A stretch of DNA of 64,000 nucleotides. Origin: Pseudovirgaria hyperparasitica. Lineage: Eukaryota; Ascomycota; Dothideomycetes; Acrospermales; Acrospermaceae. The notes below the pieces were generated by a model, which was not told the origin of the DNA, did not search any database, and worked only from the letters and a program-made list of their open reading frames with translations. Position numbers and translations under genes: made by a program. Each line of letters opens with the position of its first letter. Position 1 is the stretch's first letter. Positions 13,834 through 19,042 of this stretch are shown in pieces. The stretch is taken from positions 2,443,494 through 2,507,493 of the forward strand of contig NW_022985549.1 of NCBI RefSeq assembly GCF_010093815.1, read 5' to 3'.

Positions 13834-15924
13834 TTAACCGCCCTCGGCAGGTGCCTCGCTATCAGCCGCCACGGCAGCAACACCCCTGGTAACCTCCTCC
13901 AGACAGCCCGAACTAGCAGCCACAAAGCCGAGATACGGCCTGCTCGGCTCCAGGACACGGCTCAGGTACTCGGGGTGAAACTGCACGCCGACAAAGTACG
14001 GGTGGTCGGACAGCTCGACAATCTCCATGCGCTCGCCTTTGTCGTCCTTGCCGATGAAGCTGAGGCCAGCGGCCTCGAGGGGCGCGATAAACGCTGGGTT
14101 GACCTCGTATCTGTGCCTGTGGCGCTCGAGCACGGCGGGCTTGTTGGCGTAGAGGGCGCGCAGCTTGCTCCATTCGCTGCCGGGCTGGAAGAGGGTGGGC
14201 TTGAGGCCGAGGCGCATGGTGGCGCCCATGCTGGCCTTGTCGATCTCGGGCATGTACATGATGACCTTGTTTGTTGCGGCGGCGTCGAATTCCTCGCTGG
14301 TCGCGCCGGCGATGCCGCCCATGTTGCGCGCGAATTCGATGACGGCGATTTGCATGCCGAGGCAGATGCCGAGATACGGTGTTTTGTTCTCGCGCGCCCA
14401 TTTCGCGGCTGCGATCATGCCTTCCGTGCCGCGGAGCCCGAAGCCGCCGGGGACGAGGATGCCGTTGGCTGTGCACACGGAGTGCCAGGCTTTGTGGAAC
14501 GCCGCCGGGTCGTGGTCGCGCGTTGGTGCCTCGAGGTGTTCTGAGTCGACCCAGATCAGGTTCAGCTTGCGTTTGCAGCGCATGGCCGAATGCTCGAGAG
14601 ACTTGATGACCGAGAGGTACGAGTCGTGGAGCTCAATGTATTTGCCAACCAAGGCAATGTTGACTTGGTCTAGGAACTGGTCAGGGGCGGCAACGAGGGT
14701 ACGCCACTGTTTCCAGATACCGGCACCCTTCTGCTCGAGTGTTGGCGAGACTTTGATCTCGTCGGTGCGGAGGATGTCGCGGATCAGGGGCAGGAGACCC
14801 TGCTTCTCGAGAAGAACGGGGACTTGGTAGATTGTGGGCATGTCGCGAACGACGACGATCTGCTCGTTTTCAACTTGGCAGAAGCGAGCAATCTTCTCGA
14901 TGGCAGCTTGTTCCAGACCGACTTCGCTACGGCACGCAATCTACCTAGAGGTCAGCGTCAGGACGTCAAAGTCAAATATAAGCAACCTACCAGGTCCGGA
15001 ATGAGACCAGCACTTCGCACGGCCTTGATTGCTTGCTGCGTAGGTTTCGTCTTCTGCTCCCCATGAATGCTAGGCACGTATGAGACGAAGATCTGCAAGA
15101 AGTTGTTCTTGCCAGCTCTCCGCCGCAGCTGGGTCATCGCCTCGACAAAAGGCATGCTCTCGATATCGCCAACAGTTCCACCAAGCTCGATGATACAGAC
15201 ATCCGGCTCCTCGCCCGTATCATCAACAGGGATCCGCGCAACTCTTTCTATCCAGTCTTGGATTGCATCTGTGATGTGCGGAACCACCTGTACGGTCTTG
15301 CCGAGATAGTCACCCCTTCGTTCCCGCTCAATGACATGCTTGTATATCTTGCCGGTGGTGATGTTGTTCTCGCGAGTCAGGGTGATATTGAGATAGCGCT
15401 CATAGTTGCCGAGATCGAGGTCGACTTCGCCGCCGTCGTCCAGAACGAAGACTTCGCCATGTCTGCGCTTGTATGAGTATGGGCTTATAAGCTTCAATCG
15501 AGCCTTTCATGTAATTGCTCACTCTTTAGGGTTCATGGTACCGGCGTCGACATTGAGGTAAGGGTCCACCTTGATTGACGAGACGTGCATGTTTCATCAG
15601 CTTCGCCCAGTTCATGAGTGGATCGGCAGACATATCTTGAGCCCAATGGTCTTCAGCAGCAGGCCTGTCGACGAGGCTGTGACGCGTTCAGGTTAGCCTT
15701 CAGCCTGGACAAGAATGAAGTCTTCTCCATGTCGAGTGCTGCGTATGGAAGCGGTGTATGGAAGCGAGGTGCATGTGCATGGTGTCGCGAATATAGCACG
15801 CGTACCTATGATGCCCTTTCCCACCCCACTGATCACACCTACGAGCCACAGTCAGCTTTCTTCACCGCACTTGGACATGCATAGCAAAGAAACACGTACC
15901 TCCAGAGACCAAAACGTACTTCAT
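13834..15924 (-). CDS. URA7: CTP synthase
   Basis: Six exons (15924-15900, 15838-15806, 15676-15636, 15584-15523, 15462-14991, 14940-13834) give 579 residues, the usual fungal length. The N-terminal ammonia-ligase domain starts [18 protein letters not shown] and has the [16 protein letters not shown] and [18 protein letters not shown] signatures. The C-terminal class I glutamine amidotransferase domain has GICLGMQ (nucleophile Cys) and the catalytic FHPEY segment. It converts UTP, ATP and glutamine to CTP, the limiting step for phospholipid and nucleic-acid precursors, and forms cytosolic filaments in other organisms. The first four exons are tiny (25, 33, 41, 62 nt). Four introns are GT-AG. 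The intron between exons 3 and 4 has AT...AC ends (see separate entry). Identity is certain from sequence motifs. Confidence 0.97.
15585..15635 (-). other. URA7: AT-AC intron in the CTP synthase gene
   Basis: Exon 3 ends ...GGGCTCAAG (G-L-K) and exon 4 starts GTCTCGTCAATCAAG (V-S-S-I-K). In CTP synthases these join directly as GLK-VSSIK, so the protein fixes a phase-0 intron of 51 nt. It begins ATATGTCTGC and ends CATGCAC. The donor equals the common fungal GTATGT with the first base changed to A, and a CTGAT branch-like motif lies about 14 nt before the end. This pattern fits the rare AT-AC introns spliced by the major (U2-type) spliceosome; the U12 consensus ATATCCTT is not present. No GT-AG choice keeps the conserved frame. 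Confidence 0.8.
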
Positions 15925-17623: not shown

Positions 17624-19042
17624 TCACCAACCCTTGCGTCGTCGCTTGCCTTCCTCTCCATCATCGTCGTCACTACTATTCGGCGCTCGTTTTCGTGCTA
17701 TCGCTTTGTCGTTGCCTTTCTTGACCTGGATGTTACACCCCTGAAGTTTCAAGGCTCTCGTCAAGGCGCTACTGGAGCGCATTCCGGGGAAGTCCTTGGC
17801 TGTGTAGACTGTGAACACGTCACTGAGCACCTCAGTCAAGACCGGAAAGAAAGTGCCAACTTCAAGATTTGCAGGATCGATCCTCATGAGGACGAATCGC
17901 AGCGTGTACTGTCCATGCGTCCGGCACGAAAGATCTGGAAAGCAGAAGAAACAGCCCTCTACGTCGTGCTCGTCTTTCGCGACGGACGGTGAGGCGACGA
18001 GCTGACCCATCAGTCTTCTAGTTGGCCGCTTCTGATCCTGTAGTAGTGATGTTTGCTCTCGTTCGCCTTGAGGATCCCAGAGTGCGCAATGTAAAACATG
18101 CAAACCGTAGCGGAGCTCGTCGTCCACAGGAATTCCAGTGTTCTTGTCAGTCACTTGAAGCTGTATGATCGGTGGAGGATCGATAACCCTGCGGTCACGT
18201 TCCCCAAACCCACAAGCGCGAGCCGCAAGTGGTTGCTGTCGAACCACCAGCTTGTAATCGTATGAACTACTGCGCGCATCGTGATCAGCATCAACCACTC
18301 TGTTCCTCATCGAGATATATATTTACCTTGGATCCGGAGTAGAGTGAGCTGGCCGTGTTGCTGGTCCAGTAGCTGTTCGCGGTGCAGGTCGAGCCGTAGG
18401 AGGGCGAGGCTCCGAATGAACAGCGGGCGGTCCCGTAGTCGAGGGTGCTGAGCTTGCATGCGAACTAAACGAATTTCGAATCGTATTGTTGGCCGAATTG
18501 TACTGCGACGAATAGCTTGGTGATGGCAGGGCAGAAGGGAAACCAGGAGCCTTCCTTTCTACGGGCGAAACAAAATGAGAATCTACATGCAGATGCCGGG
18601 GGTCGTCCGATCGATATCGCGAGTCGCTCGTGGTCCGTTGTCGCGACACGGGAACATACTCACTGCGTGGAGATACGGCAGCTCCGTAGTGCGAAGATGA
18701 AAAGGCTGGCGGCTGGTAGTGACTAGGAGGTGCTGGTCTCTCGTTTGGATAGGATTGAGCAGTGTAGGGCCGAAGTGAGTGCAGAGGACTCTCACGCGGC
18801 GCATACGGGCTAGGATGTATGCTAGGTAGTTGCGCTTGGGTGATTTGCAGATGCAAATCGGGCCTTGGATGAGGCGGCTCCTGTGTCAATGAAGATAATG
18901 GAGGCAGCGTGCGGCGGTACGGATCATCGTGGAAGACTGGCTGGAAATGCGGAGGATTCTGAGTTTCCGTCATGGCCCAAGTGGTCGAGGGAGGATTGGC
19001 AGCAGTCGGAGGTTGCAGAGCCGAAGGAGGAGGACGGGACAT
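17624..19042 (-). CDS. velC: Velvet-family transcriptional regulator, VelC type
   Basis: Two exons (19042-18327 and 18269-17624) joined by a 57-nt GTAAAT...GCAG intron give 453 residues. Residues 1-240 are Pro/Ser/His-rich and disordered. The velvet domain follows: YDYKLVVRQQP, ARACGFGERDRRVIDPPPIIQL, then GCFFCFPDLSCRTHGQYTLRF and DVFTVYTAKDFPGM. The ARACGFGERDRR and SDVFTVYTAKDFPGM wording is closest to VelC as I remember the family, rather than VelB, VosA or VeA. A basic C-terminus (KRRRKGW) may be a nuclear signal. Velvet proteins dimerise and bind DNA to control development and secondary metabolism; VelC is linked to sexual development in Aspergillus. Family certain, paralogue probable. 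Confidence 0.9.

Follow-up and report, generated by a model that had tools for sequence, protein, structure and literature searches.

The CTP synthase gene of Pseudovirgaria hyperparasitica very probably contains a genuine spliceosomal AT-AC intron that, judging from its splice signals and the protein that it interrupts, is removed by the major (U2) spliceosome. The gene lies in a 64-kb stretch of DNA (hereafter the window), and intron 3 is the only one of its five introns with AT-AC ends, the other four being GT-AG (Table 1).

CTP Synthase Gene

The spliced CTP synthase protein matched 27 distinct PDB sequences, and the top chains are taken to be yeast Ura7 and Ura8. Among these 27 matches, all five alignments shown were free of gaps at the intron 3 join and had K-V at that position, with GLKVTSIK in the PDB sequences and GLKVSSIK in the protein found here. 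Four of these five sequences appear to be versions of a single protein, and the five therefore amount to about two independent witnesses. The 35-Mb assembly (59 contigs) yielded a single CTP synthase locus, and the AT-AC intron must therefore be removable by splicing. A gene for a velvet-family regulator shares the strand of CTP synthase and lies upstream of it (window positions 17624-18310, minus strand). This gene and the telomerase RNA described below mark the genome as fungal. A scan of the 64-kb window against Rfam at gathering thresholds gave no matches.

Table 1. Positions of the CTP synthase gene, its introns and splice signals (window coordinates), and of the putative telomerase RNA gene.
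Feature	Position	Strand	Description
CTP synthase gene	13834-15924	minus	6 exons, 579 aa; spliced gene model and PDB alignment
CTP synthase exons	15924-15900, 15838-15806, 15676-15636, 15584-15523, 15462-14991, 14940-13834	minus
CTP synthase intron 1	15839-15899	minus	GT-AG, 61 nt
CTP synthase intron 2	15677-15805	minus	GT-AG, 129 nt
CTP synthase intron 3	15585-15635	minus	AT-AC, 51 nt, phase 0, between K33 and V34
CTP synthase intron 4	15463-15522	minus	GT-AG, 60 nt
CTP synthase intron 5	14941-14990	minus	GT-AG, 50 nt
Intron 3 donor ATATGT	15630-15635	minus	exon AAG/ATATGT; A at +1; U2-like A+3, G+5, T+6
Intron 3 branch-site candidate GCTGAT	15596-15601	minus	only RCTRAY match in intron 3
Intron 3 acceptor GCAC	15585-15588	minus	C is the last intron base
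Putative telomerase RNA gene	L122:1033-1858 (contig C2, about 52.9-54.85 kb)		Rfam pieces, template-like sequence, 3′ signals

Splice Junction of Intron 3

Intron 3 reads ATATGTCTGCCGATCC...GATGAAACATGCAC in the assembly, starting with ATATGT and finishing with GCAC. It contains an in-frame TGA, which makes read-through impossible, and its excision fuses GLK with VSSIK. An earlier note on this DNA had described a 51-nt AT-AC intron splitting GLK-VSSIK at 15585-15635; these coordinates proved exact, as confirmed by the sequence and the PDB alignments, and the strand, which the note did not give, is minus. The efficient splicing proposed in the note would be an expectation from the single CTP synthase locus.

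To define the junction, we enumerated all frame-keeping single introns of at least 30 nt with GT-AG, GC-AG, or AT-AC ends in the region running from exon 3 through exon 4. With the AT-AC ends at 15635-15585, the protein regains both its conserved length and its conserved residues. The sole frame-keeping GT-AG and GC-AG solutions give proteins that are 19 and 30 residues shorter, respectively, than the AT-AC product, and both were rejected. An alternative 45-nt AT-AC intron (15635-15591) also preserves the reading frame, at the cost of two extra residues (MH), and this counts against the main reading; the further AT-AC combinations enumerated alter the protein more than this alternative does.

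Ten 51-nt removals keep GLxVSSIK or GLKISSIK, namely, those with the terminal pairs TC-CA, CA-AT, AA-TG, AG-GC, GA-CA, AT-AC, TA-CG, AT-GT, TG-TC, and GT-CT. Among these compatible registers, AT-AC is the only known splice pair and the only one that gives K-V. A CT-AC register (at -6, one beyond the compatible ten) turns LK into MH and was rejected; CT-AC calls in fungi have been described as very likely antisense GT-AG introns (PMC7072748). When the 51 nt of intron 3 were shuffled 100,000 times with base composition, but not dinucleotides, preserved, 503 of the shuffles had AT-AC at any of the ten compatible registers, and 7,937 had any known pair (GT-AG, GC-AG, or AT-AC). The latter number fell to 424 when GT at +5/+6 was also demanded and to 40 of the 100,000 with a CTRAY branch in addition.

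Two other explanations concern the junction itself. The intron may be an AT-AC intron that is spliced imprecisely or poorly, so that the 45-nt form or intron retention would arise either for regulation or as noise. The in-frame 45-nt intron does become available through another AC located six bases upstream of the acceptor, and AT-AC sites are described in parts of the literature as generally inefficient. We nevertheless consider this explanation very unlikely: the 51-nt junction is in exact agreement with the conserved protein, the single CTP synthase locus found has to yield a product, and the upstream AC is only 6 nt past the branch A. Equally slight is the chance that an assembly or sequencing error corrupted a normal GT-AG intron at either or both of its ends. 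Both end bases are indeed taken from an assembly of 59 contigs, but such an error would need two independent substitutions exactly at the termini (G to A at +1 and G to C at the end), and these would have to yield the one pair known to work while the frame around the intron is intact.

Splice Signals and Spliceosomal RNA Genes

The U2-type branch consensus used here is RCTRAY. The candidate GCTGAT in intron 3 matches it with no mismatches, and 12 nt of the intron remain beyond its branch A. Introns 1, 2, and 5 of the same gene have one RCTRAY each, with 13, 16, and 11 nt after the branch A, so the spacing in intron 3 falls within their range; no perfect RCTRAY was found in intron 4. Branch sites in Aspergillus are GCUAACU and GCUGACU. 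Intron 3 thus combines the features of a U2-type AT-AC intron, namely, protein-supported AT and AC ends, a U2-type donor at +3 to +6, and a U2-type branch. The earlier assignment of the intron to the U2 type is well supported by the junction, the PDB alignment, and these donor and branch signals.

The best match to the U12 branch site TCCTTAAC is TCATGAAC, which has two mismatches in eight positions and places the branch A about 26 nt from the intron end, whereas the spacing in U12-type introns is roughly 10-20 nt. The donor differs from U12 ATATCCTT (consensus RTATCCTT; PMC2846911) at three of eight positions and has lost both Cs at +5/+6. What the CTP synthase intron has in common with U12-type AT-AC introns is the terminal dinucleotides and positions +1 to +4; it departs from them at positions +5 to +7 and in the branch site, and the minor snRNAs were not found.

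For the snRNA genes, the U6 model gave 16 matches scattered over many contigs (L004-L011 and L114-L121), of which 15 are above the cut-off. The ACAGAGA motif is kept in 14 of these 15 copies, L120 being the exception. Three U2 snRNA genes were found on three contigs (L042, L043, and L044). None of the four minor families searched (U6atac, U12, U11, and U4atac) was matched in the genome, but U1 was missed as well and no control genome gave a match. The zero matches of the Rfam U1 model in the whole genome suggest that the fungal U1 is divergent or that the search has its limits. The absence of minor snRNAs therefore carries little weight: the method overlooked U1 too, and one fungus, Cutaneotrichosporon oleaginosum, was found in a published survey to have U12-type RNA genes (PMC7072748). 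U12 splicing is described as missing from Ascomycota and Basidiomycota (PMC2846911). Removal of intron 3 by the minor spliceosome is accordingly hardly credible: its AT-AC ends, the ATAT of its donor, and the two-mismatch branch agree with a U12-type intron, but the remaining donor positions, the distant branch A, and, to a small degree, the four failed searches argue against it, and no convincing minor introns are reported from Ascomycota and Basidiomycota (PMC10639083).

Genome-Wide Search for Similar Introns

Patterns were counted over the whole genome with the reversed pattern as a control that is only roughly matched. The pattern ATATGT..CTRAY..CACG occurs at 124 places compared with 139 for the reversed control, and this lack of an AT-AC excess in the genome counts against the main reading. 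The GT-AG counterpart GTATGT..CTRAY..CAGG occurs at 308 places compared with 148, which indicates that the method sees ordinary introns, yet finds no AT-AC excess. The variant ATAAGT..CTRAC..CAC shows a deficit in the genome (134 compared with 287). With so approximate a control, these counts would overlook AT-AC introns if they were few.

A coding-context score was applied to 102 candidates (combinations of place and end) drawn from the listed part of the 124 places. The locus L057 ranked first (4.8), CTP synthase second (2.7), and L104 third (2.7). The position of CTP synthase behind L057 and level with L104 indicates that this score has little power. Nine of the 101 other candidates were read by eye. 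One of them, L075, was rejected, as a GT-AG intron explains its sequence better, and the remaining eight were unconvincing; L057 and the others are unproven as AT-AC introns. From the listed places of the ATAAGT pattern (134 matches in total), 20 stretches were scored and none was convincing.

Two repeated sequences were encountered in this search. A near-identical 42-base sequence, ATAAGTA...GGATAAGACTAACGC.GCAC, is dispersed over five contigs (C5:1818630, C6:99748, C8:924152, C11:140995, and C7:1617432) and is probably a repeat family. A second repeated sequence starts with ATAAGT.CTAGTAGCTAG and was found at C2:2128706, C4:17377, C4:18291, and C7:1609956.

Putative Telomerase RNA Gene and Its AU-AG Intron

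The genome also contains a putative telomerase RNA gene with an intron that starts with A. The Rfam model of Ascomycota telomerase RNA matched C2:54497-54551 (E-value 6.6e-5) with 26 bits, below the family cut-off of 30 bits. A second piece of the model matched upstream and in the right order (L122:1033-1129) with 21.4 bits, also below the cut-off. A template-like AACTTAACCCTAATCT is present upstream at C2:52913, and CCCTAA telomere repeats were found at two contig starts (C9 and C12) among the 19 contig ends examined, 5 of which were masked. The first match is followed on its 3′ side by an Sm-like T-run and then by an ATAAGT...GACTGACTATATACAG intron (near 54.8 kb). This AU-AG intron (ATAAGT...CAG) has a length of 53 nt with 10 nt after the branch A. 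Neither match passes the cut-off by itself, and the identification is based on the order of the model pieces together with the 3′ signals and the template.

In Aspergillus niger telomerase RNA, the AUAAGU donor is reported to allow step 1 of splicing and to block step 2, and a change of A to G at +1 makes the spliced form dominant in a fission-yeast construct (PMC4299874). A change of the acceptor from AG to AC alone also blocks step 2 (PMC4299874). The telomerase RNA intron of Neurospora is reported to act alike (PMC5199203). We infer that the intron found here would stop after step 1 as in Aspergillus. The genome would then combine an AU-AG intron halting after step 1 with an AU-AC intron that has to pass through step 2, the contrast predicted by the rule on the pair of first and last intron nucleotides.

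Possible Origin and Mechanism

The pair formed by the first and last intron nucleotides is reportedly the subject of work by Parker and Siliciano in 1993. For the CTP synthase intron, the donor AAG/ATATGT would be read by U1 and then by U6 through positions +2, +3, +5, and +6, and GCTGAT would pair with U2. The A at +1 would allow branching but not the joining of exons at an AG acceptor. With C as the last intron base, ligation would become possible again, since A-C and the usual G-G are isosteric as first/last pairs (PMC13326754). For the same reason, descent from a GT-AG intron through compensating changes, as proposed in the earlier note, is plausible; a GTATGT...AG intron probably underwent G to A at +1 and G to C at its last base, with either change coming first. 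A section heading and a figure title in PMC4299874 describe the effects of variant donors as dependent on context, so that compensation by C is an expectation rather than a rule proved in this fungus.

A further reading likens the CTP synthase intron to the telomerase one. The A at +1 could hold the CTP synthase transcript between full splicing and a telomerase-RNA-like cleavage after step 1, and slow ligation to the AC acceptor could lead to the 5′ exons being discarded, with the intron as a brake on CTP supply. We give this reading very little credence. If true, a coding gene would employ the AU-intron discard route of filamentous ascomycete telomerase RNA.

Comparison With Known AT-AC and AU Introns

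U2-dependent AT-AC introns were reportedly described by Wu and Krainer in 1997. The CTP synthase intron resembles these in having AT-AC ends and a U2-type donor and branch without the U12 consensus, and nothing tested separates it from them; its host is a fungus and its length is 51 nt.

AT-AC introns are indeed rare, as the earlier note had claimed, but the kind has already been recorded in fungi. In Trichoderma longibrachiatum, AT-AC ends were found in 69 of 14,305 junctions called by TopHat (PMC4324775). In Fusarium graminearum, AT-AC is among the 0.31% of other sites in 2,604 introns (PMC3577648), and 13 AT-AC sites (0.014%), of which one was confirmed by Sanger sequencing, are reported for Ganoderma lingzhi (PMC11590231). 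An RNA-seq study of human fungal pathogens gives 0.09-5.19% of splice sites as AT-AC, depending on the species. The junctions in Trichoderma, Fusarium, and Ganoderma and the CTP synthase intron are alike as rare AT-AC cases in Dikarya; this likeness is by end type only, and CTP synthase is not among the genes named in the available parts of the three reports. No description of the CTP synthase AT-AC intron was found in a limited literature search (AT-AC introns, CTP synthase, and ascomycetes). The CTP synthase case thus adds another to the fungal AT-AC introns on record.

With the telomerase introns of Aspergillus (PMC4299874) and of this genome, the CTP synthase intron shares an A at +1 and a U2-type donor (AUAAGU in Aspergillus) and branch. 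The Aspergillus intron ends in AG, and its reported stop after step 1 makes the RNA 3′ end. In contrast, the last bases of the CTP synthase intron are AC, and its splicing has to go through step 2.

Implications

For genome annotation, gene finders that accept only GT-AG introns would break the gene for CTP synthase, which is presumably an essential enzyme. For the biology of splicing in this fungus, one genome contains two introns of near-equal length with A at +1, namely, the 51-nt AU-AC intron of CTP synthase and the 53-nt AU-AG intron of the putative telomerase RNA. The presence of this pair in one species would make the rule on first and last intron nucleotides directly testable on natural substrates.
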